Part shown: piece after piece, positions 16,855-38,816 of the stretch | Position numbering within the stretch: the first letter of the stretch is position 1 | Layout of the letters: every line of letters begins with the position of its first letter | Assembly (NCBI RefSeq): GCF_001528745.1 | Contig: NZ_BCNS01000084.1 | Coordinates: forward strand, 1-45,989 | Reading direction: 5' to 3' | Length of the DNA: 45,989 nt | DNA from: Marinobacterium profundum | GTDB lineage: Bacteria; Pseudomonadota; Gammaproteobacteria; Pseudomonadales; Balneatricaceae | The notes under the pieces: model-generated | Databases searched by the model: none | Seen by the model: the letters and a program-made list of their open reading frames with translations, nothing else | What the model was told of the DNA's origin: nothing | Position numbers and translations under genes: made by a program

Positions 16855-16879
16855 CAGAAAATTGCTCCTGCATTTTCTG
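16853..16879. repeat. 27-bp hairpin repeat, copy B
   Basis: Exact inverted copy of 27-53. Here the stem extends to 9 bp (GCAGAAAAT / ATTTTCTGC). It lies between the ATPase and binding-protein genes, where it may affect mRNA processing or stability. Confidence 0.75.
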
Positions 16880-16925
16880 CATACAGGTCATCCCTGACCT
16901 TAACCGAGAATAAGAAGGAAATCCC

Positions 16926-17903: not shown

Positions 17904-17921
17904 GACCGAGGTCCAGACACC

Positions 17922-18686: not shown

Positions 18687-18716
18687 ACACTGGGATTCGT
18701 TATTCACATTTGAGCG

Positions 18717-18754
18717 TAAAAAGGGGCCCGTACTCAGTAATGGCCCCTTTTTTA
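18717..18754. terminator. Bidirectional intrinsic terminator
   Basis: Stem AAAAAGGGGCC / GGCCCCTTTTTT with a 13-nt loop. It is flanked by A- and T-runs, so it can stop both the plus-strand ABC operon and minus-strand transcription from the nucleotidyltransferase gene. Confidence 0.9.
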
Positions 18755-18807
18755 CGCCGCACATCGGTTCCCAAGCAACCCTGGCACAACCTGTCCCAAG
18801 CGCTACC

Positions 18808-19657: not shown

Positions 19658-21067
19658 CTAGACGCTGGCGATCATGCGCTCGGGCCGCAGTACTTCGCGC
19701 AGCTGCTCGGGCGCCATGAGCCCCTCTTCCTCCACCAGTTCCAGCACGCTGCGGTTTTCCTCCAACGCCCGCTTGGCGATGCGTGTCGCGTTCTCGTACC
19801 CAAGGTAGGGATTGAGCGCGGTAACTATGCCGATGCTGTTATGCACCATCGAGGCACAGTGGGCTTCATTGGCGCTGATGCCGACGATGCACTTTTCCTC
19901 GAACATCTGCATGGCGCGCTTGAGCAGGCGCATCTGTTCCAGAATGTTGTAGGCGATCAGCGGTTCCATGGCATTGAGCTGCAACTGCCCCGCTTCCGCC
20001 GCCATACAGATGGCCAGATCATGCCCCATGATCTGATAGGCCACCTGGTTTACGGCCTCCGGAATCACCGGATTGACCTTGCCTGGCATGATGGAGCTGC
20101 CGGGCTGCTGTGCCGGCAGGTTGATCTCGTTGATGCCGGCGCGCGGCCCCATGCTCAGCAGGCGCAGGTCGTTGGCGATCTTTGACAGTTTGAGCGCCAG
20201 GCGCTTGAGCATGCTGGAGAACAGCACGAAGGCCCCCATGTCGGACGACGCCTCGATCAGATCCTCGGACTGGCGCAACGAAATGCCACTGATGCGCGAC
20301 AGCTGGGCGATGGCCAGGGTGCCATAGCGAGGATCGGCGTTGATACCCGTGCCAATGGCGGTACCACCCAGATTCACCTCGGTCAGCAGCTCCGACAGTG
20401 CGGCAATGCGGCTGATATCCTCGCCCAGAGTGCTGGCCCAGGCCTTGAACTCCTGCCCCAGGGTCATAGGCACCGCATCCTGCAACTGGGTGCGGCCCAT
20501 CTTGATGACGCCCTTGAATTCCTCGGCCTTGGTACTGAAGGCACCGCGCAGGGATACCAGAGAACCCACCAGGTCGGCGTGACTGAGCAGGATCCCCAAC
20601 CGTACGGCAGTGGGATAGGCATCGTTGGTCGACTGGGACAGGTTGACGTCGTTATTGGGGTGCAGGGCCTTGTAGTCACCCTTTTGCAGACCCATGAACT
20701 CGAGTCCGACGTTGGCGATGACTTCGTTGGCATTCATGTTGGTGGAGGTGCCGGCGCCCCCCTGGATCATATCGACCACGAACTGGTCGTGGTACTCGCC
20801 ACCGATAATCGCCTGAGTCGCGCACTGAATGGCCCGCGCCTTTTCAGGCGCTAGGGAACCCAGCTCAGCGTTGGCCTGCGCCGCCGCCTGCTTGACCATC
20901 GCCAATGCCATGATCAGGCGCGGGAAATGCTGCAGGGTCACACCACTGAGGGCAAAGTTGTTGCAGGCACGCAGGGTCTGGATGCCATAGTAAGCCTGCG
21001 CAGGCACGGGCAGTTTGCCCAGCAGGTCTTTTTCCAGCCGCACCGCGGCCACAGTCGGGTCCGACAT
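19658..21067 (-). CDS. aspA: Aspartate ammonia-lyase
   Basis: Reversibly splits L-aspartate into fumarate and ammonia. The 469-aa protein belongs to the aspartase/fumarase superfamily, with the signature GSSIMPGKVNP at 323-333 (catalytic Ser in the SS loop). It also has GAGTSTNMNANEV (105-117), HPNNDVNLSQSTND (136-149) and GTAIGTGIN (235-243). The ATG at 21067 has AGGA 8 nt upstream; the ATG five codons earlier has no ribosome site. It lies downstream of the 13-gene catabolic operon but is separated from it by a repeat region and a hairpin terminator only 33 nt from its start. Proximity to an aspartate dehydrogenase gene suggests that both handle aspartate or ammonia made by the pathway (inference). 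Confidence 0.93.
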   Translation of the reverse strand: MSDPTVAAVRLEKDLLGKLPVPAQAYYGIQTLRACNNFALSGVTLQHFPRLIMALAMVKQAAAQANAELGSLAPEKARAIQCATQAIIGGEYHDQFVVDMIQGGAGTSTNMNANEVIANVGLEFMGLQKGDYKALHPNNDVNLSQSTNDAYPTAVRLGILLSHADLVGSLVSLRGAFSTKAEEFKGVIKMGRTQLQDAVPMTLGQEFKAWASTLGEDISRIAALSELLTEVNLGGTAIGTGINADPRYGTLAIAQLSRISGISLRQSEDLIEASSDMGAFVLFSSMLKRLALKLSKIANDLRLLSMGPRAGINEINLPAQQPGSSIMPGKVNPVIPEAVNQVAYQIMGHDLAICMAAEAGQLQLNAMEPLIAYNILEQMRLLKRAMQMFEEKCIVGISANEAHCASMVHNSIGIVTALNPYLGYENATRIAKRALEENRSVLELVEEEGLMAPEQLREVLRPERMIASV

Positions 21068-21100
21068 TGAATAGGTCCTCATAAGGTTGTCTATCAGGCA

Positions 21101-21535: not shown

Positions 21536-23179
21536 TCAATAAAGCTTCTTCTGTGGGGGACCTGCGAAGTTCAGCGGGCCGACCTTGTCCATGTCCACCT
21601 CGATCACGGCGGGGCCGTCGATGGCGATGGCTTGCTGGATGGCGGATGCGAACTCCTCAACCGAGCCCACCTGCCAGCTTGGCATGCCCATGGCGGTGCC
21701 AAGATCCCGATAGCAGGGTGTATGCAGTTCGTTGTAGTACTGCCGGCCTTCGAAGTAGTTGTTCTGGATACCACGCATCACACCGTAGCCACCGTCGTTC
21801 ATGACGATCAGCACCAGATCGGTATTTTCCTGCACCATGGTGGCCATCTCGCCGATGCCGAGCATCAGGCCACCGTCACCCACCAGACCGACCACCTTGC
21901 GCGTCGGGTTGGCAATGGCGCTGCCGATAGCGTGGGCCAGACCCAGGCCGATGGCACCGGCCAGGGAATGGATGTTGCGGTTCGCCCCGTTGATCTCGAA
22001 CAGGCGGCTGCCCCAGGTGCTGCCGGACATGGTGATATCCCGCACCAGGATGCCGTCCTGCGGCAAAGCAGCGCGCAGCGCCTGGCAGATACCAGCATAA
22101 TTGCCGACCTGATCGCTCAGCGCCGCCACCGACTGCTCGACCACAGTCGCAATGGCACGATCATAATCCGCATCCACCTTTTCACCCTCGCTCAGGGCAT
22201 CGGCCAGGTACGCCAACACAACCTTGGCATCGGCGCAAATAAAACGATCGGCGCGGTAATTGCGATTCTGGGCTGCGGCATGGGCATCGATCTGTACCAG
22301 CGGCTTGCCGAACTCCAGCGAGTAGGTCAGGGTCTCGTTGCTGCGCAGGCGCGAGCCCGCCACTATCACCAGATCGCTGTCCCTGCACAGATCCTTGAAT
22401 GAGGCGCTGTTGTGAAAGGCGCGCAGGCTGCGCGGATGAGTGTCCGGCAGGATGCCGCGGCCATGAGTGCTGGACACCACCGGCACGCCCTTGTCGGCCA
22501 GCGCCTTTACTTCAGCTTCGCAGCCAGCAGCACCGCCACCAATCCACAGCAAAGGACGCTTGGCGCTTTTCAGCTGCGCGGCCAGGCTTTCCAGCTCGGC
22601 GGACGCAGGCACCGGCAGCGCCGCGGGCTCGATGGGGCCCAGGTCCGCCGGCAGTTCGATTTTCGCCGCCTGCACATCAATCGGAATCTCGATGCTCACG
22701 GGGCCCATGGGCACGCTGCGGGCGATGCGGATAGCTTCACGCAGGATGCCGGCGGCACTTTCCGGGTGGCTGATGCGAAACGCTGCCTTGCTGCTGGCCT
22801 TGAGAAAGGTCAGCTGATCCTTGGCTTCATGGATAAAGCTGGCATCGCGGTCCAGATATTCGCGCTCCACCTGACCTGTAATGTGCAGCACGGGGCTGGC
22901 GGCATTGCAGGCTTCAATCAGGGAGCCAATGGCATTGCCGGCACCGGCGCCGGTGCTGGTCAGGGCCACACCCAGACCTGCAAAGCGGGCATGGGCATCG
23001 GCCATGGTGACGGAACCGGCTTCACCGCGGGCCGGCACAAAGGTGATCTCGCCGCGACGGCCGATGGCATCGGCCACCGGCAGGTTGTGGATGGAAATCA
23101 CGCCGTAGACGTTGGCAACGCCGTGGGCTTCGAGGATGCGGGCGACGACTTCGCCAACGGTAATTTTTTCTGCAGACAT
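21536..23179 (-). CDS. Thiamine-diphosphate-dependent enzyme (acetolactate synthase/2-oxoacid decarboxylase family)
   Basis: A 547-aa three-domain TPP enzyme. The N-terminal pyrimidine-binding domain carries the activating Glu53 (RGEAGSVTMADAHARF), a central domain follows, and the C-terminal PP domain has the GDGGLMLGIGEMAT... motif at about 434-463 ending in NDGGYG. It is of the ilvB/benzoylformate-decarboxylase-like group, so it may decarboxylate or carboligate a 2-oxo acid. It is last in the operon, 37 nt after the aldehyde dehydrogenase. A decarboxylase making an aldehyde that the dehydrogenase then oxidises is the natural reading. With aspartate dehydrogenase present, oxaloacetate to malonate semialdehyde is one option, but the substrate is not shown by the sequence. 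Confidence 0.87.
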   Translation of the reverse strand: MSAEKITVGEVVARILEAHGVANVYGVISIHNLPVADAIGRRGEITFVPARGEAGSVTMADAHARFAGLGVALTSTGAGAGNAIGSLIEACNAASPVLHITGQVEREYLDRDASFIHEAKDQLTFLKASSKAAFRISHPESAAGILREAIRIARSVPMGPVSIEIPIDVQAAKIELPADLGPIEPAALPVPASAELESLAAQLKSAKRPLLWIGGGAAGCEAEVKALADKGVPVVSSTHGRGILPDTHPRSLRAFHNSASFKDLCRDSDLVIVAGSRLRSNETLTYSLEFGKPLVQIDAHAAAQNRNYRADRFICADAKVVLAYLADALSEGEKVDADYDRAIATVVEQSVAALSDQVGNYAGICQALRAALPQDGILVRDITMSGSTWGSRLFEINGANRNIHSLAGAIGLGLAHAIGSAIANPTRKVVGLVGDGGLMLGIGEMATMVQENTDLVLIVMNDGGYGVMRGIQNNYFEGRQYYNELHTPCYRDLGTAMGMPSWQVGSVEEFASAIQQAIAIDGPAVIEVDMDKVGPLNFAGPPQKKLY

Positions 23180-23216
23180 GGCTGTTTACCTGTTGTTGTA
23201 TAGGGGGCGAAAGCGA

Positions 23217-24683
23217 TCAGTTACACCAGGGGTTGGCGGTGTCACTGAGACCGACGTACAGACTCTTCTGTTGCATATACTCGAGCACGCCCAGTCGTCC
23301 CTTTTCGCGGCCCAGACCACTCTCCTTGAAGCCACCAAAGGGCGCCGAAATGGAGAACTTCTTGTAAGTGTTGATCCAGATGGTGCCAGCTTCCAGCTGA
23401 CGACCGATACGCCAGGCGCGACGGAAGTCCTCGCTCCAGATTCCGGCGGCCAGCCCAAAGACGCTGTTGTTGGCGCGGGCCAGCAGATCCGCCTCGTCGT
23501 CGAATTTCAGCACCACCAGCACAGGCCCGAAAATCTCGTCCTGGCAGACGCTGGCGTCATTATCGAGGCCGCTGATGATGGTCGGCGGATAGTAGCTGCC
23601 CTGGGCCAGGTCCCCTTCGGTCAAACGTGCGCCGCCGCAAAGGACCTCACCGCCCTCGGCGCGTGCCTTGTCGACAAAACCGGCCACAGACGCGAGGTGT
23701 GCTTCGCTGATCAGCGGCCCCATATGGGTACCCGACTGCTCCGGGTGACCGACGCGCAGCTTAGCCGTCAGCGTCAGCAGCCGATCCATGAAGCAGTCAT
23801 ACACCTTGGCATGGACAAACAGGCGGGAACCGGCGATGCAGGCCTGGCCCGAGGAGCTGAAGATGCCGTAAACAACGCCCTTGGCTGCCAGCTCGATATC
23901 CGCGTCATCAAACACGATGGTAGGCGACTTGCCGCCCAGTTCCAGCGAGGTCGGGATCAGCTTCTCGGCCGCCACATGGGCCAGATGACGCCCGGTGCCG
24001 GTGCCGCCGGTAAAGGAAATCTTGCGCACCAGCGGGTGCGCCGCCAGAGCTTCGCCCACCACCGAGCCCCGGCCCGGCAACACACTCAGCAGCCCCTTGG
24101 GCAGGCCGGCTTCCTCGAACAGTTCGGCCAGGGCCAGGGCCGCCAGCGGCGTGGCATCGGCGGGCTTGACGATAACCGCATTGCCCGCCGCCAGCGCCGG
24201 GGCTATCTTCTGCATTTCGCTGGCAATGGGCGAATTCCAGGGGGTGATAGCGGCAATAATGCCCAGCGGCTCGTGCACGCTCAGGGTCATGAATTCGCGG
24301 GAGCGCTGGGCCGGAAATTGCTCATCCAGGGTTTCGCAGGCGGCGGCAAAATAGCGCGCGGTGCCGGCCGCACTCATGACCAGGCCCCGGCTTTCAGCCA
24401 GCGGCTTGCCGTTGTCACGGGTCTGCATGGCCGCCAGTTCGTCGACGCGCTGGGTAATCAGATCCGCCACGCGATACAGCACCGCGGCGCGCTCATGAGG
24501 CATGCGGTTGCGCCAATCGGGCTCACGCCAGGCAAGCTCCGCCGCCTGTACAGCCTCTTCCACATCTTCGATGCTGGCAGTGGCGATTTCGGCATTCAGG
24601 CTGCCGTCGGCCGGAAAATAGGTCGCACGCACGGGGCCCCGTCCCTGTTTCCACTGGCCGGCGATAAAAATAGGCTTGGTCAT
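23217..24683 (-). CDS. NAD(P)-dependent aldehyde dehydrogenase
   Basis: A 488-aa ALDH superfamily enzyme oxidising an aldehyde to the acid. The catalytic residues are visible: Asn150 (PWNSP), Glu248 (LELGGKSP) and Cys282 (SSGQACIAGSR). The cofactor-binding SFTGGTGTG lies near 223-231. The ATG at 24683 has GAGGAG 7 nt upstream; an in-frame start seven codons earlier lacks one. It lies between the aspartate dehydrogenase (26 nt gap) and the TPP enzyme genes and probably consumes the aldehyde product of the TPP enzyme. It resembles broad benzaldehyde/betaine-aldehyde-type ALDHs and lacks the MmsA signature. Confidence 0.92.
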   Translation of the reverse strand: MTKPIFIAGQWKQGRGPVRATYFPADGSLNAEIATASIEDVEEAVQAAELAWREPDWRNRMPHERAAVLYRVADLITQRVDELAAMQTRDNGKPLAESRGLVMSAAGTARYFAAACETLDEQFPAQRSREFMTLSVHEPLGIIAAITPWNSPIASEMQKIAPALAAGNAVIVKPADATPLAALALAELFEEAGLPKGLLSVLPGRGSVVGEALAAHPLVRKISFTGGTGTGRHLAHVAAEKLIPTSLELGGKSPTIVFDDADIELAAKGVVYGIFSSSGQACIAGSRLFVHAKVYDCFMDRLLTLTAKLRVGHPEQSGTHMGPLISEAHLASVAGFVDKARAEGGEVLCGGARLTEGDLAQGSYYPPTIISGLDNDASVCQDEIFGPVLVVLKFDDEADLLARANNSVFGLAAGIWSEDFRRAWRIGRQLEAGTIWINTYKKFSISAPFGGFKESGLGREKGRLGVLEYMQQKSLYVGLSDTANPWCN

Positions 24684-24709
24684 GATTATTCTCCTCGAAG
24701 CCAAAGGCC

Positions 24710-25513
24710 TCAGATCAACAGGGACGCGGTGCTGTGACGACAGGCGCGAACAACGCTCAGCGCCGCCAGGGTCGATGTCTTGGGGTTGCTCTCCAGCGGC
24801 AGGCCGCTCAGCTCCAGCTTCATATCACCAAAGCGGCCACGGGCGCAGATCAGGTGCTGGTTGCGCTCGATGCCGGGATCCGCCATCAGCTCGACCCGGG
24901 TGTCATCCATGCCGATACCGGCCAGGGCGATGGTCGCCGCCACATTGGCATTGGCCGGGAACAGCAACGCCGCCTCCCGGGCGGTGCCACGGTAAAACAC
25001 CGTAGGCTCGGTGATGGCGTCCAGATCGATCAGGGTTTCGGCCGGGCTGCCTCTCCAGCTTTTTGGGCTCTTGCGCGAGCAGTACACCACCTCGTCCAGG
25101 CCGCCTTCTTTCGCCGCAGCCAGACCATCGATACCGGCAATGGCGCCGGCCAGTGCATGAATGCGGGCCTTGCCCGCCACCGCCGCGCTCTGCAGTCGAT
25201 CCAGCAGGGCATTGTCGGCAAAGGCGCCGACGGAAATCACACCCAGATCCCAGCCCCGGGCCAGGACCGCTTCACCATGTTCGCGGATCGCGCCCTGACC
25301 GGCACACTCAACCACCAGGTCCGGCGTGCCGTCGCAGGCCGCATTCACAGCATCAATAGTGCTGATCACCCGAACATCGGCTGATACCTGGCCGCGAGCT
25401 GCTGCCACGCTATCCGCCGGTACCAGCAGCCATTGCAGATTAAGGTCTTCGGGCAGCAGCGCGACCACTTCGCGGGCCATGGAGCCAAAACCGATCATCA
25501 TCAGTTGTTTCAT
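24710..25513 (-). CDS. L-aspartate dehydrogenase family protein (NadX-like)
   Basis: A 267-aa NAD(P)-dependent dehydrogenase of the aspartate dehydrogenase family, interconverting L-aspartate and iminosuccinate/oxaloacetate plus ammonia. Visible are the N-terminal Rossmann motif GFGSMA (8-13), SVGAFAD, GAIAGIDGLAAAKEGGL, KSPKSWRGSPA, NANVAATIALAG, and the catalytic-region NQHLICARGRFG with its conserved His. The ATG at 25513 has GAGG 9 nt upstream; the TTG five codons earlier is rejected. It is embedded in a ring-degradation operon rather than with nadA/nadC, so NAD synthesis is unlikely. It probably handles an amino or imino intermediate, or recycles ammonia into aspartate. From memory, not checked, a similar ALDH/AspDH/TPP/SDR order exists near PA3504-PA3507 of Pseudomonas aeruginosa. 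Confidence 0.88.
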   Translation of the reverse strand: MKQLMMIGFGSMAREVVALLPEDLNLQWLLVPADSVAAARGQVSADVRVISTIDAVNAACDGTPDLVVECAGQGAIREHGEAVLARGWDLGVISVGAFADNALLDRLQSAAVAGKARIHALAGAIAGIDGLAAAKEGGLDEVVYCSRKSPKSWRGSPAETLIDLDAITEPTVFYRGTAREAALLFPANANVAATIALAGIGMDDTRVELMADPGIERNQHLICARGRFGDMKLELSGLPLESNPKTSTLAALSVVRACRHSTASLLI

Positions 25514-25524
25514 GCAGATTTTCC

Positions 25525-26319
25525 TCAAAGATGCCGGTTAAAGCCGCCGGACACATCCAGTGCCGCGCCTGTGGTGAAAGACGCCAGGGGCGATGCCAGG
25601 AACACCAGCGCGCGGGCCGGCTCTTCGGGCTTGCCCAGACGTCCCATCGGGATGCCGCGCTTGGCCGCGATGGCACCAATCCAGCTGTCCCAGCCCATGC
25701 CCTTGTCGCTGCGATCCTCAAAGCGACGACGCCACTGCCCCGACTCCACCATGCCCAGCAGGATCGAATTGACGCGAACCCCCTTGGCGGCAAACTCATG
25801 GGCCAGCGAATGGCTCAGATTCAAGAGCCCCGCCCGTGCCGCCGAGGTGGCGATCATGTGGGGTTCAGGCTGCAGCGCCAGCAGGGAATTGACGTTGGTG
25901 ATGGAGCCGCAGCCGGAGGCTTCCAGCATGGGCTGAAATGCCCGCACCGGATGAATCACACTGAACAGCTTCAGCTCGGCCTCGGCCAGCCAGTCTTCAT
26001 CCGCCGTTTGCGCAAATGAGCTGACCCGGCCCTGACCGGCGTTATTGATCAGGCAGTCCGCGCCGCCGAAGGCGTCCTGCACCTGGGCGGCAAAAGCCTC
26101 AACCTGGCTGCGGTCCAGAACATTGCAGACCGAGGTCAGCATCTGCCCTTCAGGAAAGGCATCACGCATCAAGCCTTCAGACTCCGCCAGACGCTCGGGG
26201 TTGCGGCCACACCAGGCGACCTTGGCACCTTCTTGCAGCAGCAGGCGCACCGTCTCCAGTCCGATGCCGGAGGAGCCGCCGGTTACCACAGCAACCTTGC
26301 CGGTTAAATTAAAGCTCAT
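25525..26319 (-). CDS. Atypical short-chain dehydrogenase lacking the Tyr-Lys pair
   Basis: A 264-aa Rossmann-fold SDR with a good cofactor site: TGGSSGIG at 13-20 and NNAG at 92-95. The expected Y-x3-K catalytic motif reads Thr158-x3-Arg162 (IATSAARAGLL), although Ser145 is kept. The codons (ACC at 25846-25848, CGG at 25834-25836 on the minus strand) are clear, and the frame is intact on both sides. It is therefore not a frameshift but a true substitution or a divergent subfamily. It may catalyse something other than classical alcohol oxidation. The stop of the upstream hydrolase overlaps its ATG (ATGA), with GGAGG well placed. AspDH follows 11 nt later. Confidence 0.88.
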   Translation of the reverse strand: MSFNLTGKVAVVTGGSSGIGLETVRLLLQEGAKVAWCGRNPERLAESEGLMRDAFPEGQMLTSVCNVLDRSQVEAFAAQVQDAFGGADCLINNAGQGRVSSFAQTADEDWLAEAELKLFSVIHPVRAFQPMLEASGCGSITNVNSLLALQPEPHMIATSAARAGLLNLSHSLAHEFAAKGVRVNSILLGMVESGQWRRRFEDRSDKGMGWDSWIGAIAAKRGIPMGRLGKPEEPARALVFLASPLASFTTGAALDVSGGFNRHL

Positions 26320-27194
26320 TGTTCGCCTCCAGAAAAAGCGCGCTGGCCCAGGCCCTGTGCAAAAGTCAGGTTCTGTGCGTAATCGGTGATGGCCGCGGCG
26401 AAAGCCGCGGGCGCATCTATATAGCTGGCATGACCGGCCTGGGGCAGTGCTACATAGCTTGCCTTGTTGCAGTCTGCAGCCAGATCCGCCGCAGTCTGCG
26501 GCGGCGTAATGCTGTCTTCATCGCCACAGATCACCAGCAGCGGGCGCTGGTAGTCCAGCAGATAGCGCCAGATATCATCGTGGGCCAGCAGCCAGGACGC
26601 GGCGCTAAAGCCCGCCATATTCAGCCGCTGCATGCCATCGGCCACCAGTGCCACCTTTTCAGCGCTCGCACTGGGCGACAGCAGCGCCGGCGCCCGCTCA
26701 AGCGCCAGGCCCTCGGGACCCAGGGCTTCGAGCATGGCCGGGCGTTTGCGAAAGATATCCTGCTGCGTTTGTGCGTCCGCCTGGCCGTAGCCCTGGGCCG
26801 GATCCGCCAGTACCAGGCCCGCCAGGCGTTCGCCCTGCAGGCTGGCAAAGGCCGCTGCCTGCAGGGCCCCCAGGGAATGCCCCAGCAACAGCGGGCGCTG
26901 CAGATCCAGCGCCTCCACCAGCCCCAGCAGGGCCTCGGCATAGTCCAGTGCCGTTGGCGTTGCGGTCTTCAGTGCATCACTGCCTCCGTAGCCCGGCGCA
27001 TCCCAGGCAATGACCCGGTACTGGGCGCTGAGGGATTCGAACTGCTGGACCCAGGAGCCTGACCCCGAACTGATGCCATGCAACAGCAGCAGCACCGGGC
27101 CTTCTCCTGCCTCACGGTAGGCCAGGCGACGCCCCTTGAACTGCAGCATTTGCAGCGGGTAACGGCTCAGCTTGTCGGTCAGAGTGGACGCCAT
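26316..27194 (-). CDS. Alpha/beta hydrolase (meta-cleavage-product-hydrolase-like)
   Basis: A 292-aa alpha/beta-hydrolase. The oxyanion region LLLLHGISSGSGSW (35-48), nucleophile elbow GHSLG with Ser107, acid in ICGDEDSITPP and His in QAGHASYID are all present. In a ring-cleavage operon such enzymes usually hydrolyse the C-C bond of an extradiol meta-cleavage product, or an ester/enol-lactone. The ATG at 27194 lies 5 nt after the cupin stop, and the gene ends in an ATGA overlap with the next SDR. Substrate not readable. Confidence 0.9.
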   Translation of the reverse strand: MASTLTDKLSRYPLQMLQFKGRRLAYREAGEGPVLLLLHGISSGSGSWVQQFESLSAQYRVIAWDAPGYGGSDALKTATPTALDYAEALLGLVEALDLQRPLLLGHSLGALQAAAFASLQGERLAGLVLADPAQGYGQADAQTQQDIFRKRPAMLEALGPEGLALERAPALLSPSASAEKVALVADGMQRLNMAGFSAASWLLAHDDIWRYLLDYQRPLLVICGDEDSITPPQTAADLAADCNKASYVALPQAGHASYIDAPAAFAAAITDYAQNLTFAQGLGQRAFSGGEQ

Positions 27195-27199
27195 CAGCT

Positions 27200-27721
27200 T
27201 CAGCCCCGCTTGATCTGCGACAAGGGGTGATCTTCGGGGTAGGTCGGGATCTGCGGCTTGGACGTACCGAGCATCACGCACATCAGGGCGTCTTCCTGAC
27301 CGGGGTTGAACAGGCCGCGGTAGATGCCGGGCGGAATGGAAATCAGGTCACGCTCACACAGAGTCGTCTCGAAGCGCTCACCATTGTGCTCGACAAACAG
27401 GTTGATGGTGCCGCGCAGCATAAAGAACACTTCCTCGACATCGTCATGCACATGCAGCGGGCCTTCACACTGGGCCGGCAGCATCATGGTCGAAAAGGTG
27501 AAATTCTCGGCCTGTACGGCGTTGCTGTCCGCGCTGACGCCGGTAGCACCGGTGCCCATGTAGCGCATCTGCGCGCGACGGTACTTGGGATCGTAGTCGG
27601 CCTGAAACTTCAGGGCGTTGAAGTCGTAGGTGCGATCCTCAAAGCGTGCAATGCGGCCATTGAGCCAATCACCCAGCGATTTGTCTTCCGGCTTTACCCA
27701 ACCTTCGAATTTAAGTGTCAT
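27200..27721 (-). CDS. Cupin-domain protein
   Basis: A 173-aa single-cupin protein. The metal-binding motif 1 is GPLHVHDDVEEVFFMLRG (His90, His92, Glu96/97) and motif 2 is the later ISIPPGIYRGLFNPG, where the usual His is replaced. Cupins in such operons act as dioxygenases, isomerases or decarboxylases on ring-cleavage intermediates. The ATG at 27721 has GAGAGG 8 nt upstream; the ATG two codons earlier is too close to it. Downstream is the hydrolase (5 nt). Upstream is the MFS gene, separated by 78 nt holding a 7-bp hairpin. Confidence 0.87.
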   Translation of the reverse strand: MTLKFEGWVKPEDKSLGDWLNGRIARFEDRTYDFNALKFQADYDPKYRRAQMRYMGTGATGVSADSNAVQAENFTFSTMMLPAQCEGPLHVHDDVEEVFFMLRGTINLFVEHNGERFETTLCERDLISIPPGIYRGLFNPGQEDALMCVMLGTSKPQIPTYPEDHPLSQIKRG

Positions 27722-27758
27722 GCCCATATCCTCTCGCTATTTAACGGCAACAGTTACC

Positions 27759-27782
27759 CCTGCCCGCCCGATACAGGGCAGG
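27759..27782. other. Intra-operon hairpin
   Basis: Stem CCTGCCC / GGGCAGG with a 10-nt loop, in the gap between the MFS and cupin genes. No T-run; probably an mRNA processing or stability element. Confidence 0.4.
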
Positions 27783-27799
27783 CGGAATGGAAGTACAAC

Positions 27800-29056
27800 T
27801 CAGTATTTTTTAATAAGTGGCAGCAGTACCAGGGAGCCGACAATGGCAATGACCACCAGGAACATGATGCCGTTATCGAAATTCCCGGTCTGGGTCACGA
27901 TATAGCCCATAAGTACCGGGGCCGCGGCACCGGCAAAATTGCCAAAGCCGTTAAACACTCCACCGGCCGTGGCGCTGACATTGTCCGGGCTCACCCGGGC
28001 CAACAGGGCAAAGACAGATGCAACACCAAAGCCCCAGCTCATGGCACTGATCGACATGGCGAGAATGGTCAGCATCGGGCTTTCGATCAAAGGCACCGCT
28101 GCCATGGCGATGCCGGCCATCAGCAGGCCACCAAATACCTGGGCGGCACGCTTGCCGGTTTTGTCCGACAGGAAGGCACCGGCAACTTCACCGAACAGCA
28201 TGGCGATGAAGGGCAGCGATGATATGGAACCAAACTCTTTCAGGTTGATGCCCTTGGCTTCGATCAGATAGCTCGGCAGCCAGCCATTGAGGCCCCAGAG
28301 ATAGGTCAGCAGCGCGGTATTGAACAGACAGACGGCCCAGAAAGCCCGCGCACCAAAGAGAACCTTGCAGTTGGCGATATGCTGCTGCCAGTCCATCTTC
28401 TTCTTGCCGGCGTTAAGCTCGGCGCCAGTTTTAAGCTGCACATCCCGCAGGCCCAGCACCACCACAGCCACGACAACCACCGTCAGCGCAGCCATCACGA
28501 AGAAGGTCATCTGCCAGCCGTAGTTGGCCAGTACATAGGCGGTAATCGGAAAACCCAGGGCTGCGCCTATGGGCGTCCCCAGCAGGAACATGGTTGATGC
28601 ACGGGCGATCTGATGCGGGCTGTAGCACTGCTTGACGATGGTATAGGCCAGCGCAAACAGCGGGCCTTCGGCAACACCCAGCAGTACCCGCAGCACCAGC
28701 AGCTGCTCATAGCTCTTGGCCATTCCCATCAGCGCCATCAACACACCCCAGAGCACCACACAGGCGGTAAGGCATTTTTTGGGATTGACCAGGTCGCCGG
28801 CCATGCTGAGGAATATCGAGGAGAAACCGTAGGCCAGCAGGAAACTGGTCATTAGCCAGCCCAGCTTGGTTTTGTCATCACCGATGCCCATGACCGTCTG
28901 AAAGGTCGGATCGGAAAAGAGCACGGCAATGCTGATCTTGTCGAAAAAGGCCAGCACGACGCAAATCATCAGCACGCCGGATATCGACCAGTGTTTCAGG
29001 TTGGAGCCGGTTTTTGGCATGCTCGCAACGGCCATATCACCCTTCAAAGTTTGCAT
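27800..29056 (-). CDS. MFS transporter, anion:cation symporter (ACS) family
   Basis: A 418-aa, 12-TM major facilitator. It has an early Asp/Lys-containing helix (VVLAFFDKISIAVLF), the A-type loop GDLVNPKK between TM2 and TM3, and the LLGVAEGPLFALAYT stretch in TM4 typical of the ACS family, which imports organic anions such as hydroxybenzoates, phthalate or hexuronates. It lies within the oxygenase operon, so it likely imports the aromatic acid substrate. The start at 29056 has AGG 8 nt upstream; the internal ATG at 29035, with AAGGG close by, is also credible. Confidence 0.92.
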   Translation of the reverse strand: MQTLKGDMAVASMPKTGSNLKHWSISGVLMICVVLAFFDKISIAVLFSDPTFQTVMGIGDDKTKLGWLMTSFLLAYGFSSIFLSMAGDLVNPKKCLTACVVLWGVLMALMGMAKSYEQLLVLRVLLGVAEGPLFALAYTIVKQCYSPHQIARASTMFLLGTPIGAALGFPITAYVLANYGWQMTFFVMAALTVVVVAVVVLGLRDVQLKTGAELNAGKKKMDWQQHIANCKVLFGARAFWAVCLFNTALLTYLWGLNGWLPSYLIEAKGINLKEFGSISSLPFIAMLFGEVAGAFLSDKTGKRAAQVFGGLLMAGIAMAAVPLIESPMLTILAMSISAMSWGFGVASVFALLARVSPDNVSATAGGVFNGFGNFAGAAAPVLMGYIVTQTGNFDNGIMFLVVIAIVGSLVLLPLIKKY

Positions 29057-29136
29057 ACTAGTACCTGTTTATTCTTATAGCGTTGTTTTAAACAGCTCGC
29101 GGGCCTGTCCGCGCGGTATCAGCCCAAGGTTCCAGG

Positions 29137-30357
29137 CTAAGGTTTTAGCGTCATGAGATTCTGTGCAGGATCCGCCAGTATCTCGGCCGGCAGCTTCATA
29201 CCCGCCTTGATCCAGCGCTTTCCCAGCTTGATCAGTTTCGGGTCATTTACTGCAATCAGGGACTCCAGACGATCATCGGCATCCAGGCGGATAAAGGACT
29301 GCTGATTGTCGCCGCAAATACGGCGGATATCGGTGCCTTCACCGCTGCCGGCGGCCCCCAGGATCTGGATATTGCACTGATACTGATCCGACCAGAGCCA
29401 GGGCACATCGGCATAGGGCGTATCCTGCCCCAGCAGGGAGAGCGCCGCCGAAATCGCCTGATTCTGCGCATTGGCCCAGGACTGGATGCAGTAACCCAGC
29501 TCCGGGTGAATGGCGACGTCACCGGCGGCATAGATATCGGCATCCGAGGTCTTGCCGCAAGCATCCACCACCAGCCCGGACGTGGTCGCAAGACCCGCTT
29601 CGCGACCCAGCTCCGAGGCGATCTCAGCACCCGCGCCTACCACCACCGCATCAAACAGGCCCGCCACTGCGCCTGCGGCAGACACCAGCACAGCACCACC
29701 GGCGGCGCCGGCCAGTTCGATGGCACCGCAACTGAGCTGCACATCGACACCCTGATCGCTGTGCAGCTGATAGAGAAAGTCAGACACTTGCGGCGCCACG
29801 CTGCGGGCACACAGACGCTCTGCGAGCTCAAACACCGTCACATCCAGCCCCTGCTTGCGTGCCGTGGCCGCCACTTCCAGACCGATCCAGCCCCCACCGA
29901 TAATGGCCATTCTGCGCCCCGGCTGCAGCTTTTCACCCAGACGCGCAGCATCCGCGATGGTGCGCACCGTATAGACGCCATCAATTTCGGCCCAGGCCTT
30001 GACCGGCACCCGGGCACGGCTGCCGGTGGTCAGCATCAGCTTGTCGTAGCTCAGCAGCTTGCCACTGGCCAGGCGCACTTCCCGGCGCGCACGATCGATC
30101 GCCACCGCCGTATCCGGCTTGTGCCACTGGATATTCAATGCCTCTATGGCTTCGCTGGAAAACAGCTGCGTCGCGGAGGCATCCATTTCACCGGCCAGCA
30201 CCTGCTTGGACAGCGGTGGGCGTTCGTAAAACACCTGATCCTCGTTAGAGACCAGCGCCAGCTCACCCTCGAAACCGTTCTGGCGCAGCGTATGGGCCGC
30301 CCAGGCGCCGGCCTGGCCGGCACCGATAATCAGAATGCGGGAAATGCTGTGGCTCAT
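29137..30357 (-). CDS. FAD-dependent ferredoxin reductase
   Basis: A 406-aa NADH:ferredoxin reductase of the BphA4/rubredoxin-reductase group. FAD-binding GAGQAG spans 12-17, then YERPPLSK, the NAD-binding GGGWIGLE (154-161) and the second FAD motif IYAAGDVA. It passes electrons from NADH to the Rieske ferredoxin, which supplies the terminal oxygenase. GAGGA precedes the ATG. It lies mid-operon between the VOC dioxygenase and the MFS gene. Confidence 0.92.
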   Translation of the reverse strand: MSHSISRILIIGAGQAGAWAAHTLRQNGFEGELALVSNEDQVFYERPPLSKQVLAGEMDASATQLFSSEAIEALNIQWHKPDTAVAIDRARREVRLASGKLLSYDKLMLTTGSRARVPVKAWAEIDGVYTVRTIADAARLGEKLQPGRRMAIIGGGWIGLEVAATARKQGLDVTVFELAERLCARSVAPQVSDFLYQLHSDQGVDVQLSCGAIELAGAAGGAVLVSAAGAVAGLFDAVVVGAGAEIASELGREAGLATTSGLVVDACGKTSDADIYAAGDVAIHPELGYCIQSWANAQNQAISAALSLLGQDTPYADVPWLWSDQYQCNIQILGAAGSGEGTDIRRICGDNQQSFIRLDADDRLESLIAVNDPKLIKLGKRWIKAGMKLPAEILADPAQNLMTLKP

Positions 30358-30421
30358 AAGATTATCCTCGCTCTTTAGCTGTCATTTAAAAGGCGTTCAT
30401 ACCGAAATCAAGGCGGCAATA

Positions 30422-31363
30422 TCACGCTAGCTGGGTCACCACCTGGCGACGGGTGTTGCCGTCCAGACCGCCCTCCACGGCCCACTCGGTGAAGAGTTCC
30501 AGGCGGTGTTCGAGGGTGCGGGGCTGCCAGGCTGCAGTCAGGTAGTCGTCGTTGGTGTAGTACTCGAAAGCGCCGCCCAGCGGGCTGTTGACGTACCAGA
30601 AATAGGCCGAAGATATCGGATGACGCCCGGGGCCAATAAAGGTGGACCAGTCTTTGCGGTTCATCGCCATGCCACCGCCGATCACCTCGTGTATATCACG
30701 CACGGTAAAGGCGACATGGTTAAGGCCAGCAGGCTTGTTCGGCACCTTGAGCAGGAAGAGATCATGATGATGGCCTTCGGTGCCGGCGCGCATGAACACA
30801 CCCTTGCCGATGTAGCGATCCGACACCTGGAAGCCCAGCTTCTCGTGGTAGAAGGCTTCAACAGCGTCGAGGTCCTCAACGAAGAACACCGCATGGCCAA
30901 TACCGATCGGCTCGCCGCGCTCATATACGGGACTCGGCGCATCCACACGACGGATATCACCGTGCTGGTTGATGCCAGGCACCGTCAGTTCCACCGGCAC
31001 CTGAGTCGACAGCTGAAAGCGCAGGTACATGCCATTGGGATCCAGGCAGCTGACCGAATCCGCATCGCGGGCATAGCCCTGAACATCAACAAGACGTTCA
31101 GTCAGGGCATCGAGATCCGACGCCTGCTCAACCCCCCAGACCAGGGTGCGCAGTGTCGAGCCGGCCTCAAAGGCGTTCGGCAAACGCCTGTCGCCCTTGT
31201 CGTACAGGTAAAGCCGGCTCTGGTTCAAGGTGCGGTATAACTTCGCATCCTGCACCGCGCTGTTGTCGGCTTTAAGACCGAAATCGCTCAGAAAGCGGCA
31301 GGCCTGTTCCATGTCCTCGACGCCGAAGTGTAATTCTTCGATACCCTTGATCTTCATAGTCAT
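30422..31363 (-). CDS. Type I extradiol ring-cleavage dioxygenase (VOC family)
   Basis: A 313-aa two-domain vicinal-oxygen-chelate protein like catechol 2,3-dioxygenases. The Fe(II) ligands are visible in the C-terminal domain as His157 (GIGHAVFFV), His216 (NHVAFTV) and Glu267 (GGAFEYYTND). It should open a dihydroxylated ring next to the two hydroxyls. An N-terminal VOC domain without ligands is normal for the family. The start is the ATG at 31363, with a second ATG two codons in. Position after the SDR and before the reductase fits hydroxylation, re-aromatisation, then cleavage. A glyoxalase-like non-dioxygenase is unlikely given the ligand set. Confidence 0.9.
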   Translation of the reverse strand: MTMKIKGIEELHFGVEDMEQACRFLSDFGLKADNSAVQDAKLYRTLNQSRLYLYDKGDRRLPNAFEAGSTLRTLVWGVEQASDLDALTERLVDVQGYARDADSVSCLDPNGMYLRFQLSTQVPVELTVPGINQHGDIRRVDAPSPVYERGEPIGIGHAVFFVEDLDAVEAFYHEKLGFQVSDRYIGKGVFMRAGTEGHHHDLFLLKVPNKPAGLNHVAFTVRDIHEVIGGGMAMNRKDWSTFIGPGRHPISSAYFWYVNSPLGGAFEYYTNDDYLTAAWQPRTLEHRLELFTEWAVEGGLDGNTRRQVVTQLA

Positions 31364-31389
31364 CTCTCTGTTAAAGGCTTGAGGCCCGA

Positions 31390-32148
31390 TCAGTTGCAGA
31401 CGAAGCCGCCGTTTACCGCCAATGTCTGACCGGTGACAAAGCTCGCCAGGTCCGACAGCAGATAAAGCACGCTGCCGGTCACATCTTCTGGCATCTGTTC
31501 GCGCTGAATGGCCCGGCCGTTTATATAGTGTTCATGACGTTCCCTGGGCACATAAGCGGTCGCCTCCACCAGGGTCAGACCCGGGCAGACGGTGTTGACG
31601 CAGATGTTCTGCGCCCCCAGCTCCCGTGCCATCGACCGGCTCATGGAGATAACGGCGCCCTTGCTGGCGACATAGGCCATCAGGCGCGGTGCGCCCCAGA
31701 GCGCGGTATCGGATGCGATATTGACGATCTTGCCGGCAGTCGAGGCCGCAAGGTGCGGTACCATCGCCCGACTCATCAGCCAGGTACCGCGCACATTCAC
31801 GGTCATCACCCGATCCCAGGTATCGATTTCCAGCTCACACATATCCGGGCCGCCGATACCGGTGGCAATGGCACCGCAGTTAACCAGGCCATCCACTTCG
31901 CCGAAACGAGCGGCACTGAATGCCGCGACCGCCTTAATGGATTCAGGATCCGCCAGATCCAGCCGTACCGCGACGGCATCAAACCCCTGCTCTACCAGGG
32001 CGCCAGCTTCCTGTTCCACCAGCTCATCAAGGATATCCGCCATCACCACCTGGGCACCGGCGGCACAGGCTGCCTGGGCAAAATCCAGCCCCAGCCCGCG
32101 CGCCGCGCCGGTAATCAGCAGACGTTTGCCCGCCAGCAGCTTATTCAT
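31390..32148 (-). CDS. Short-chain dehydrogenase (candidate cis-dihydrodiol dehydrogenase)
   Basis: A 252-aa classical SDR. The cofactor motif TGAARGLG spans 13-20, with Asp38 suggesting NAD preference, Ser146 (NIAS) and Tyr159-x3-Lys163 (YVASKGA). The NAG motif is replaced by NCGA. It starts inside the oxygenase gene with an 8-nt overlap (ATGAATAA), so translation is coupled. By position it would oxidise the cis-diol made by the Rieske oxygenase to a catechol-like compound for the extradiol enzyme. It is the operon's intact SDR, unlike the one at 25525. Confidence 0.92.
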   Translation of the reverse strand: MNKLLAGKRLLITGAARGLGLDFAQAACAAGAQVVMADILDELVEQEAGALVEQGFDAVAVRLDLADPESIKAVAAFSAARFGEVDGLVNCGAIATGIGGPDMCELEIDTWDRVMTVNVRGTWLMSRAMVPHLAASTAGKIVNIASDTALWGAPRLMAYVASKGAVISMSRSMARELGAQNICVNTVCPGLTLVEATAYVPRERHEHYINGRAIQREQMPEDVTGSVLYLLSDLASFVTGQTLAVNGGFVCN

Positions 32149-33184
32149 TGGCCGCGGCCTCTTTACAGGGCGCAGCCTCTTCGAGCTGGGCCAATTGCTT
32201 CTGGGCCATTTTTTTCATCAGCCGACGCAGGCGCGACAGGCCCACATCGTGCTGGTAGAGGAACTCATGGTTACGGGCATCCGGCGCCATCTGCTCGAGG
32301 ATGATCTGATCCTGAACCAGTACATCCCAGTGCAGTTTTTCCAGCCGGTTGCGATAAAGGAAACGCCAGGTGTCACGCTGCCAGCCCTGCACCTTGCGGG
32401 CACGCCAGAAGAAGACACGGGTGTTGTTTTCATCGATCGGGGTCGCCTGGCCAACAATCCAGAACTCGCCGCCGGGACCGAACTTCTGCTGATAGGGAAT
32501 CGACAGACGCAACCAGAAGGTGCCGCTGTCGCCAAATTCGACCCAGTCGAAATTGACGCCGCTCTGGCCTACTTTCTCGAATCTGAAGCCGTTCTCGGTG
32601 TCGACCACGCGCATATCAGCGCTACGTTCACCCTCGGCCATGGAGTGGGAGGTACCGTGCAGATAGCTACCGTGCATCGGGTCCATCACATTGTCGACGG
32701 CGTAACGATGGTTGCAGGCCCAGTCGGCGGTGCAGAGGAAGCTGCTCCACTGCTCGCTTTCGAGCTGCTCCGGCAAGACCAGGTCATCAGGCACAGTGCC
32801 GGCATCAAGACCGAACCAGACAAAGATGGCGCCGTGCTTTTCAAGCACCGGGTAGGAGCGCACGCATTTGGTGCCGCTCATGGGGCAGTTGCTGACGGCC
32901 GGCACATCGGCCACTTCGCCATCACCCTTGACCTCAACGCCGTGGTACCAGCAGGCCACGCGGTCGCCCAGGTTCCAGCCCAGGGACAAACGCGCACCAC
33001 GGTGTGGGCAACGGTCTTCCAGCGCATGCACCTGACCCTCGCGATCACGCCACAGCACTATATTGTCGCCCAGGCGGGTAATGCCCACGGGGCTGGTCGC
33101 CACTTCCCAACTGGCCACCACCGGATACCAGCGGTTGCGCAGCCCAAGATCAAGATAGCTTTCGATTGTTTGCTTGTCGTTCAC
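32141..33184 (-). CDS. Rieske non-heme iron aromatic-ring oxygenase, large subunit
   Basis: A 347-aa terminal oxygenase. The Rieske cluster ligands are Cys59, His61, Cys78 and His81 (CPHRGARL...CWYHG). The mononuclear-iron motif is N165-x2-D168-x2-H171-x4-H176 (DNVMDPMHGSYLH). The start is a GTG at 33184 with AGGGG 8 nt upstream; the longer frame to 33343 overlaps the preceding gene and lacks a ribosome site. No beta-subunit gene is present, so it is probably an alpha-only oligomer as in VanA/CarAa-type enzymes. It receives electrons from the ferredoxin (33515) and reductase (29137). It either dihydroxylates a ring or demethylates a side group. Confidence 0.93.
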   Translation of the reverse strand: MNDKQTIESYLDLGLRNRWYPVVASWEVATSPVGITRLGDNIVLWRDREGQVHALEDRCPHRGARLSLGWNLGDRVACWYHGVEVKGDGEVADVPAVSNCPMSGTKCVRSYPVLEKHGAIFVWFGLDAGTVPDDLVLPEQLESEQWSSFLCTADWACNHRYAVDNVMDPMHGSYLHGTSHSMAEGERSADMRVVDTENGFRFEKVGQSGVNFDWVEFGDSGTFWLRLSIPYQQKFGPGGEFWIVGQATPIDENNTRVFFWRARKVQGWQRDTWRFLYRNRLEKLHWDVLVQDQIILEQMAPDARNHEFLYQHDVGLSRLRRLMKKMAQKQLAQLEEAAPCKEAAANE

Positions 33185-33203
33185 GGTAAATCCCCTGTTC
33201 TGC

Positions 33204-33503
33204 TCAGTAACCCAGTCGCGCCATCTCGGCCTGGAAGCTGTCGGTGCTCCAGAGCGCCGAAGCTTCGGTGCGTGATCCCCGTGCGTTGAGCGCGGCAACC
33301 AGCTCATCAAGCTCCACCACACCCGTGGTGAAAACAGCTTCAAGGTGGGCTACCAGCGCCTCTTCGTAGCGGCTCGGCTCGCGGTGGCGGGTCTGCCAGA
33401 CGATGTTCTGAGTACGGCCCGGCACCTGGATGTTATTGATGCCAGCCAGGGTGTTGGGCTCATTCCGGAACCAGGTGGCAAGTTTGGGGTTGTACTCGGT
33501 CAT
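33204..33503 (-). CDS. Small recombinase-like helix-turn-helix protein of a Rieske operon
   Basis: A 99-aa protein beginning MTEYNPKLATWFRNEPNTLAG and ending ...FQAEMARLGY. The middle (RHREPSRYEEALVAHLEAVF...GVVELDELVAALNARG) resembles the small family named recombinase-like HTH; this is recalled, not searched. It has a clear GAGGAG ribosome site and lies between the Rieske ferredoxin (11-nt gap) and oxygenase (19-nt gap). It may be a small structural or accessory subunit of the oxygenase rather than a DNA-binding protein. The gene itself is well supported; the function is unknown. Confidence 0.8.
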   Translation of the reverse strand: MTEYNPKLATWFRNEPNTLAGINNIQVPGRTQNIVWQTRHREPSRYEEALVAHLEAVFTTGVVELDELVAALNARGSRTEASALWSTDSFQAEMARLGY

Positions 33504-33514
33504 GGTGCGTCTCC

Positions 33515-33823
33515 TCAGACCAGTTGCAGCTGAATGTCGTCGCCTTCAACCCGCAACGGATAGGTGTTCAGGTTGCGACAGCCTGGGCCGCTTTCCAGCT
33601 TGCCGGTGGGAATATCGAAAATCGCTTCATGCAACGGACATTCGACGGTGCGGCCTTCAACGAATCCCTGGGTCAGCAATGCATAGGCATGGGGGCAGAT
33701 ATCGTCGATGGCATAGAAGCCATCCTCCACCTTGAACACACCCAGCGCCTTGTCCTGGACCTTGACTGAAAACGGGCTGTCTTCCGATACCTGCCCCACT
33801 TTGCAAACTGACACCCAGCTCAT
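33515..33823 (-). CDS. Rieske [2Fe-2S] ferredoxin
   Basis: A 102-aa BphA3-type ferredoxin carrying electrons from the FAD reductase to the terminal oxygenase. Cluster ligands are Cys43 and His45 (CPHAYALLTQG) and Cys62 and His65 (ECPLHEAIFD), with the usual 16-residue spacing. The ATG at 33823 has GAGG about 9 nt upstream; a GTG three codons earlier is less likely. It is the first gene of the 13-gene minus-strand operon, with two AT-rich 15-bp boxes directly upstream. Confidence 0.93.
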   Translation of the reverse strand: MSWVSVCKVGQVSEDSPFSVKVQDKALGVFKVEDGFYAIDDICPHAYALLTQGFVEGRTVECPLHEAIFDIPTGKLESGPGCRNLNTYPLRVEGDDIQLQLV

Positions 33824-34425: not shown

Positions 34426-35214
34426 TCAAAACTGGGAAGAGTGCAGACTCAGCGTACGGGACAGATCCTGCGCGGCCTTGACGACCTCATCCCGGATACG
34501 GCCGTCGAACTCGTCCCGGGACAGGCTGCCCAGCGGGCAACTCACGGAAACCGCGGCAACGATACGCCGGTCATCCACACTGAAAACCGGTGCTACACAG
34601 GCCGCCATGCCGGGATTAAAATGCCCCCAGGCGATGGCTGCATCCTTGCCGCGGTAACTGCGCACCCGCTCCAGCAAGGCCTCGGGCGTGGCGGGCGTCG
34701 CTTCCGTGAAGCGATCGAAGCTGAAATCCTGGTACAGCTCCACAATCGCCTCATCCGACAGGGTCGAGAGCATCAGCTGCCCGGTGACAGTGGCGTGGGC
34801 CGGCCAGCGGGTCCCCACCGATACGGTACTGGTGAAAGGCCCGGTGGCCTGGAAGCAGTCGACAATCACGGTATTGCGCCCGTCGCGAATTAGCAGCTGG
34901 CTCGCCAGGGTTGTCTGGTTGCGAAGATGCTCCAGAATCGGACGCGACGGCTCCAGCAGTTCAAGGCTGGAGAGATATTGAAAACCCAGATCCAGAATAC
35001 GCGAGCTCAGGGTATAGCGATTACTGTCGCCAATGCGGCGCAGAAAACCACAGTGTTCGAGGGTATAAACGAGCCTGAAGGTACTGGAACGATTCACTCC
35101 AATCGCCTCTGCCAATTCAGTTATAGATACTTCCCTGTTGGTTTTGCTGAACTGCTGCAGCACAGCCAGCCCCCTGACCAGACCCGGGACTATATAACGG
35201 TCATCTGTTTCCAT
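34426..35214 (-). CDS. IclR-family regulator 2
   Basis: A 262-aa IclR regulator starting METDDRYIVPGLVRGLAVL. It has an N-terminal HTH (about 10-72; NRSSTFRLVYTLEHCGFL) and a C-terminal effector domain (LLIRDGRNTVIVDCF..., AWGHFNPGMAACVAPVF). It is a paralogue of regulator 1 at 13635. The frame is open to 35421, but the family start fits the ATG at 35214, which has only a weak ribosome site. It lies immediately upstream of, and in the same direction as, the Rieske operon and is divergent from the NCS1 transporter, so it could control either. The aromatic ring-degradation operon is the more usual IclR target. Confidence 0.9.
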   Translation of the reverse strand: METDDRYIVPGLVRGLAVLQQFSKTNREVSITELAEAIGVNRSSTFRLVYTLEHCGFLRRIGDSNRYTLSSRILDLGFQYLSSLELLEPSRPILEHLRNQTTLASQLLIRDGRNTVIVDCFQATGPFTSTVSVGTRWPAHATVTGQLMLSTLSDEAIVELYQDFSFDRFTEATPATPEALLERVRSYRGKDAAIAWGHFNPGMAACVAPVFSVDDRRIVAAVSVSCPLGSLSRDEFDGRIRDEVVKAAQDLSRTLSLHSSQF

Positions 35215-37267: not shown

Positions 37268-37277
37268 AGCCAGATGA

Positions 37278-38816
<1,539 letters not shown>

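Follow-up and report, generated by a model that had tools for sequence, protein, structure and literature searches.

A conserved Rieske oxygenase operon of Marinobacterium profundum as a candidate gene set for kynurenic acid degradation

The stretch of DNA analysed here (the window) is 45,989 nucleotides long and originates from Marinobacterium profundum (assembly GCF_001528745.1, contig NZ_BCNS01000084.1). On its minus strand, at positions 21536–33823, 13 genes form a real and conserved catabolic operon, which, with a probability of roughly 0.62 and judging from its enzyme classes, would take up kynurenic acid (4-hydroxyquinoline-2-carboxylate) and degrade it completely by the quinoline route of tryptophan catabolism. 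The operon may be described as Rieske and meta-cleavage catabolism with a distinct lower part, for which kynurenate is the best-supported substrate.

The 13 genes had been listed in their order by a sequence-only reading, and all of them were confirmed by open reading frames and profile searches. Several starts were corrected from the translations (ATG 33823 for the ferredoxin, ATG 25513 for the aspartate dehydrogenase, and ATG 24683 for the aldehyde dehydrogenase), the hydrolase start was set to ATG 27194, and the Rieske alpha gene begins at GTG 33184 and encodes 347 amino acids, the 400-amino-acid open reading frame having a spurious front of 53 residues. After this correction neighbouring genes overlap by no more than 8 bases or stand no more than 80 bases apart.

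The unit opens with the Rieske-type ferredoxin of the oxygenase (33515–33823; PF00355, 75.8 bits), whose best NCBIfam models are HcaC-type and AndAb, all below cut-off, and with a 99-amino-acid HTH_62 protein (33204–33503; PF20552, 88.5 bits), which is kept with the unit. Then follow the Rieske oxygenase alpha protein, the proposed kynurenate 7,8-dioxygenase (32141–33184; PF00355 and PF19112 VanA_C), a short-chain dehydrogenase/reductase (SDR1, 31390–32148; PF13561, 191.5 bits), which is the proposed dihydrodiol dehydrogenase, and a vicinal oxygen chelate (VOC) extradiol dioxygenase (30422–31363; HpaD and catechol-2,3-dioxygenase models, below cut-offs), the proposed 7,8-dihydroxykynurenate 8,8a-dioxygenase. 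The flavin adenine dinucleotide (FAD) ferredoxin reductase of the oxygenase (29137–30357) is HcaD/AndAa-like (316/303 bits, below cut-offs), and the next gene encodes a major facilitator superfamily (MFS) transporter proposed for uptake (27800–29056; PF07690, 166.9 bits; TIGR00893, 187.5 bits, below cut-off). The lower genes encode a cupin (27200–27727; PF07883 Cupin_2), proposed as the opener of a dihydroxypicolinate ring, an alpha/beta hydrolase (26316–27194; PF00561, 109 bits), proposed as the amide hydrolase acting after ring opening, a second short-chain dehydrogenase/reductase (SDR2, 25525–26319; NF005468, 434 bits against a cut-off of 266), proposed as a side-chain reductase and the least certain assignment of all, an L-aspartate dehydrogenase (24710–25513; NF009828, 389 bits against a cut-off of 177; PF01958), proposed as iminosuccinate reductase, an aldehyde dehydrogenase (23217–24683; PF00171, 556.9 bits), proposed for side-chain aldehyde oxidation, and a thiamine pyrophosphate (TPP) enzyme (21536–23179; NF005470, 812 bits against a cut-off of 495), the proposed 2-oxo-acid decarboxylase. 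The aspartate dehydrogenase, the TPP enzyme, and SDR2 each exceed a curated NCBIfam cut-off, and the models of the latter two specify no substrate. Upstream of the operon and on the same strand lies an IclR regulator gene with a deduced start (34426–35214; PF01614/PF09339).

The conservation of the unit was followed in the best 80 of 518 relatives confirmed by alpha similarity in a scan of named genomes. Ten core proteins were considered, namely HTH_62, alpha, SDR1, the extradiol dioxygenase, the cupin, the hydrolase, SDR2, the TPP enzyme, aspartate dehydrogenase, and aldehyde dehydrogenase, and all ten genes stand on one strand in 71 of the 80 relatives, so that the gene set is not a chance arrangement. 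The remaining nine loci miss from one to seven core genes, several of them because the fetched stretch or the contig ends. The carriers include Marinobacterium, Acinetobacter, Klebsiella, Serratia, and Paraburkholderia (P. xenovorans LB400 being L059); SDR1 adjoins alpha in all 80, an IclR gene (at least 30% identity) is likewise found in all 80, the ferredoxin is present in 77, the FAD reductase in 73, and the operon's type of MFS transporter in 45.

Of 293 genomes of the window's order four, from two genera, contain strong matches to alpha (E ≤ 1e-160), and precisely these four also contain those to the TPP enzyme (E ≤ 1e-90; genus-level chance 1.4e-4). Three further genomes have weak alpha-like matches (36–38% over part of the protein, about 1e-31) and no TPP match. 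In a class sample of 369 genomes alpha (E ≤ 1e-90) was found in the window genome only. Because of this co-occurrence and the conserved core set the two halves of the operon belong together, and the earlier view of one catabolic unit with an upper meta-cleavage half and an unusual lower half holds.

In an alignment of five sequences the Rieske ligands of alpha (C112, H114, C131, and H134) and its iron triad (D221, H224, and H229; numbering of the 400-amino-acid reading frame) are invariant, as are the metal ligands H157, H216, and E267 of the extradiol enzyme and Ser136 in a GxSLG motif together with His284 of the hydrolase (numbering of its 321-amino-acid reading frame). Thus a multicomponent Rieske oxygenase is complete by family, with ferredoxin, reductase, and an alpha protein with intact metal ligands, and the PDB relatives of alpha include carbazole dioxygenase and 2-oxoquinoline 8-monooxygenase. 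Residues H92, H94, E98, and E99 of the cupin are invariant in alignments of 5 and of 29 sequences, and its six PDB matches are weak, all of them being quercetinase or 3-hydroxyanthranilate dioxygenase, both ring-cleaving enzymes. The hydrolase matches alpha-(N-acetylaminomethylene)succinate hydrolase (PDB 3kxp) distantly (1.1e-12), and many other hydrolases score higher.

Bacterial kynurenate catabolism was described in the 1960s with kynurenate 7,8-hydroxylase, 7,8-dihydrodiol dehydrogenase, and 7,8-dihydroxykynurenate 8,8a-dioxygenase, and its later steps, in which a reduction and a decarboxylation precede oxidation of the aldehyde, lead to 5-(2-carboxyethyl)-4,6-dihydroxypicolinate. Set against this chemistry, the ferredoxin, the FAD reductase, and the alpha protein would dihydroxylate kynurenate at C7–C8, SDR1 would rearomatise the dihydrodiol to 7,8-dihydroxykynurenate, and the extradiol enzyme would cleave the C8–C8a bond to give a 4,6-dihydroxypicolinate bearing a 2-oxo-acid side chain. 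In the fourth step SDR2 may reduce the double bond of the side chain, the TPP enzyme may decarboxylate, and the aldehyde dehydrogenase may oxidise the aldehyde, with 5-(2-carboxyethyl)-4,6-dihydroxypicolinate as the predicted product; SDR2 is the sole candidate for the double-bond reductase in the operon. In the fifth step the cupin is proposed to open the dihydroxypicolinate ring oxidatively between C4 and C5, a reaction that cupins are not known to catalyse, and the alpha/beta hydrolase to split the resulting amide to 2-oxoglutarate (hence glutamate) and iminosuccinate. Finally, aspartate dehydrogenase would reduce iminosuccinate to aspartate, whereby the nitrogen is retained. Observed are the genes, their families, the ligands that were checked, and the conserved unit; every substrate of this scheme, the order within its fourth step, and the whole of its fifth we infer from the enzyme classes, each of which matches a step, HTH_62 alone having no place in it.

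The scheme also accounts for the unusual composition of the lower half. Cleavage at the ring junction of a fused nitrogen ring dihydroxylated at C7–C8 leaves a pyridine with a CH=CH-CO-COOH chain, after which the usual series of hydrolase, hydratase, and aldolase cannot follow, and a pyridine that bears a 2-oxo-acid chain calls for a decarboxylase and an aldehyde dehydrogenase, besides an enzyme that opens the ring. The N-C2(COOH)-C3-C4 part of the dihydroxypicolinate ring corresponds to iminosuccinate, which would explain aspartate dehydrogenase in the operon; therefore, a 2-carboxylate together with a 4-oxygen on the ring predicts this enzyme. The earlier suggestion of a nitrogen-bearing aromatic substrate is probably right.

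In the literature PMC5610271 cites work in which 7,8-dihydroxykynurenate was formed enzymatically and a pathway was suggested for Pseudomonas fluorescens, glutamate, alanine, and organic acids are named as what certain pseudomonads make from kynurenate (PMC11354673), and 5-(2'-carboxyethyl)-4,6-dihydroxypicolinate appears among the tryptophan metabolites in PMC10543884. Searches of openly accessible papers, to which preprints and most subscription papers do not belong, yielded no genes assigned to the degradation of kynurenate. The system had been put forward as a candidate undescribed one; if kynurenate is indeed the substrate, its chemistry would be an old described pathway and the term would apply to the genes only.

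With the quinoline (kynurenate) pathway of Pseudomonas from the 1960s the operon shares, by enzyme class, the series of ring dioxygenation, dihydrodiol dehydrogenation, extradiol cleavage, decarboxylation, and aldehyde oxidation, the difference being that the pathway has no genes assigned in the literature searched and that the cupin, hydrolase, and aspartate dehydrogenase steps are proposed here. Canonical meta-cleavage operons such as bph, car, and mhp likewise have a Rieske oxygenase, a dihydrodiol dehydrogenase, a VOC extradiol enzyme, and an alpha/beta hydrolase; unlike them, the operon has a TPP enzyme, an aldehyde dehydrogenase, a cupin, and an aspartate dehydrogenase. The canonical lower route was rejected, since none of the window proteins scanned matched a family of dienoate hydratases, aldolases, or acylating acetaldehyde dehydrogenases, and the absence of these enzymes noted earlier can be maintained for that set, which is smaller than all window reading frames and the whole genome. 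The lower half had been regarded as a stand-in for the hydratase and aldolase route, an interpretation that gives way to one in which it would handle a pyridine-bound 2-oxo-acid side chain and ring opening. In vitamin B6 and nicotinate degradation, too, an alpha/beta hydrolase acts after a pyridine ring has been opened, and some variants of the unit share with these routes a NicC-like monooxygenase; the proposed ring opener here is, by contrast, a cupin. The Pseudomonas aeruginosa cluster PA3504–PA3514, named earlier as partly similar, probably contains the lower genes, a short-chain dehydrogenase/reductase, and an ATP-binding cassette (ABC) transporter and is not known to contain Rieske and extradiol genes; PA3505 or PA3506 is mentioned in five papers, and no Pseudomonas was present among the plasmid records matching the cupin (25 records) or the TPP enzyme (28 records).

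A further line of evidence concerns tryptophan itself. The window contains a full-length tryptophan 2,3-dioxygenase (TDO) gene, the possible head of the route (40523–41689, plus strand, alternative start ATG 40577; PF03301, 331.9 bits), which is located 6.7 kb from the operon; the genome has no other match to the TDO family. The product of this gene remains below the TIGR03036 cut-off (167.8 against 390.7 bits) and matches a PDB TDO over residues 22–381, with 294 bits for the human 5ti9 and 122 bits for the best shorter chain, the bacterial 2nw7. TDO is also found near the operon in M. sedimentorum (L013, 92%) and in HF-Din08 (L116, on the same 29,021-base contig as L014; 73%), so that the linkage is seen in three genomes. 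Both relatives carry, besides the window's kind of TDO, a TIGR03036 TDO, and a 184-amino-acid reading frame at 39571–40125, which has no Pfam or NCBIfam match, is conserved near TDO in two relatives (86% and 68%).

Kynureninase, in turn, has no match in the window genome at E ≤ 1e-40. At the same threshold TDO is present in 23 of the 369 genomes of the class sample and kynureninase in 19 of these 23, one of the four others being only 62% complete. Of 30 Serratia genomes 26 carry alpha and the same 26 carry TDO, and kynureninase is above cut-off in none of the 30, with weak matches in 19, a pattern that represents one lineage. Since P. aeruginosa without kynU overproduces kynurenate (PMC4938989), genomes with TDO and without kynureninase plausibly make kynurenate as well. 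The TDO and kynureninase pattern supports kynurenate as the substrate and is no proof of it. In Zobellella endophytica kynureninase and TDO occur on the contig of the operon at about 27–29 kb, which is too far to be taken as linkage. Inspected as plain reading frames, the surroundings of TDO in one genome of Zobellella and two of Serratia contained nothing telling.

Several observations weigh against kynurenate. TDO was sought in 50 of the best 80 relatives and kynureninase in nine: TDO had no match in 25 of the 50, including all seven Acinetobacter sampled, and such genomes would depend on import of the substrate; kynureninase was above cut-off in eight of the nine, and TDO was within the fetched stretch in only one of the 80. 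The four Serratia genomes without alpha and TDO are small (1.5–3.6 Mb), Serratia TDO is far from the operon (3.08 and 4.18 Mb on one contig in G362), and Serratia microhaemolytica (L064) has the operon and no TDO match. The survey of tryptophan and kynurenine genes covered TDO and kynureninase. On the enzyme side, alkene reduction is unusual for a short-chain dehydrogenase/reductase, the cupin is without the final histidine of the usual cupin motif, and the extradiol match is partial (about 30–34%) in the ABC-bearing alphaproteobacterial, Vibrio, and Streptomyces versions of the unit.

More distant versions of the unit occur in Novosphingobium, Nitratireductor, Paracoccus, Pseudosulfitobacter, and Streptomyces; the gene set is retained there with a different gene order and transporter, and in several of them the ferredoxin and reductase differ too. 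In three alphaproteobacterial versions the HTH_62 gene heads the unit, ABC genes stand between it and alpha, and the cupin counterpart is a 315-amino-acid two-cupin protein (about 32% match). Bisbaumannia (L090) and L104–L106, presumably Halomonadaceae-like from their similarity to L090, have an insertion with a flavin monooxygenase, a tripartite ATP-independent periplasmic (TRAP) transporter, and a sulfatase, the latter being cut by the stretch end in L106. In Vibrio nigripulchritudo the lower genes are accompanied by the monooxygenase, by TRAP genes, and by an extradiol gene that has diverged, and the 28-kb stretch contains no Rieske gene. In strain TUMSAT-V.nig1 (L093) the TPP and monooxygenase genes are split (17174–18848 and 22430–23519). 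The sister record NZ_AP024089 has an unbroken TPP match and a monooxygenase match in two pieces; assembly errors are possible. The variant monooxygenase is closest in PDB to 6-hydroxynicotinate 3-monooxygenase (285.6 bits); it has matches in 271 plasmid records, in six of them at an identity of at least 60%, and all six also hold the TPP gene. Judged by this similarity, the NicC-like enzyme could turn xanthurenate (8-hydroxykynurenate) into the same 7,8-dihydroxy intermediate. The sulfatase beside it in L090, L104, L105, and L106 suggests a sulfated aromatic as a natural substrate.

A broader proposal, which we advance only tentatively, is that the operon would allow both quinoline acids derived from tryptophan to be degraded aerobically and completely, kynurenate by the Rieske branch and xanthurenate by the NicC-like branch, which would meet at 7,8-dihydroxykynurenate and share cupin ring opening and nitrogen capture by aspartate dehydrogenase; the sulfatase of the Halomonadaceae-like strains would then act on xanthurenate sulfate. 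Rather unlikely, yet the most serious of the competing explanations, is that the unit degrades by the same chemistry another N-heteroaromatic acid, for example quinaldate, another hydroxyquinoline acid, or mainly xanthurenate. The enzyme classes do not fix the substrate, and the NicC-like entry enzyme with the sulfatase in four Halomonadaceae-like units suggests that related substrates feed the core; however, aspartate dehydrogenase would be explained only by release of iminosuccinate, which needs the 2-carboxylate and 4-oxygen of the kynurenate and xanthurenate pattern, and the TDO linkage points to tryptophan.

Improbable is the degradation of a nitrogen-free aromatic acid, with aspartate dehydrogenase serving merely the supply of nicotinamide adenine dinucleotide (NAD) or aspartate. 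Some aspartate dehydrogenases do serve NAD synthesis, the NadX model TIGR03855 matches below cut-off, and routes for nitrogen-free compounds often include MFS and extradiol families, but versions of the unit as far apart as those of Marinobacterium and Streptomyces retain aspartate dehydrogenase, an N-heteroaromatic hydroxylase is the closest relative of the alternative monooxygenase, and in Caballeronia sp. M1242 (L108, 9569–9985) a RidA-annotated gene, with an enamine/imine deaminase as its best model, below cut-off, adjoins alpha, in keeping with an imine intermediate. That the upper oxygenase genes and the lower genes are two unrelated units which merely adjoin is very improbable, since the 6–7 kb of other genes between both parts in the Halomonadaceae-like genomes and the Rieske-free Vibrio stretch are outweighed by the shared occurrence of strong alpha and TPP matches in four of the order's 293 genomes and by the interleaving of both halves' genes in Caballeronia, Novosphingobium, and Nitratireductor.

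The operon with kynurenate as its proposed substrate has several neighbours in the window. An ABC transporter (ATPase, NMT1 binding protein, and permease; 15808–18686, plus strand) is 58–72% identical to the in-unit ABC genes of Nitratireductor, Paracoccus, and Pseudosulfitobacter and is probably a second importer for the same substrate; because of this resemblance the system probably extends past 21536–33823. An IclR gene (13635–14417) and a porin (14529–15566) lie beside it. An aspartate ammonia-lyase family gene (19658–21082), which could convert aspartate into fumarate, comes right after the operon, but as an operon member it was rejected owing to a 453-base gap and no match in the 80 named loci, of which 32 reach 2 kb past the TPP match; none was found in L009–L011 either, which extend 7–12 kb past it. 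Between the operon and the TDO gene, at 35765–38816, an NCS1 permease precedes a dihydropyrimidinase (616 bits against a cut-off of 393), likely a hydantoin or pyrimidine module, which was rejected as part of the unit as it occurs in one of the 11 loci compared (M. sedimentorum).

Kynurenic acid is a bioactive breakdown product of tryptophan. It interacts with AMPA and NMDA receptors, GPR35, and the aryl hydrocarbon receptor (AhR) (PMC5610271, PMC4938989), and pseudomonads consuming it have been on record since the early 1960s (cited in PMC5610271 and PMC11354673). If the proposed pathway is true, genes would be supplied for several enzyme activities that are not known to have any, together with a candidate pyridine-ring-opening cupin, and genomes would predict which soil, marine, and gut-associated bacteria consume kynurenic acid. 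The presence of the operon in Klebsiella, Enterobacter, and Acinetobacter would then mean that bacteria act as a sink for a signalling molecule of the host. An operon common to many soil, marine, and gut-associated bacteria looks, from its gene content, like the missing kynurenic acid gene set.

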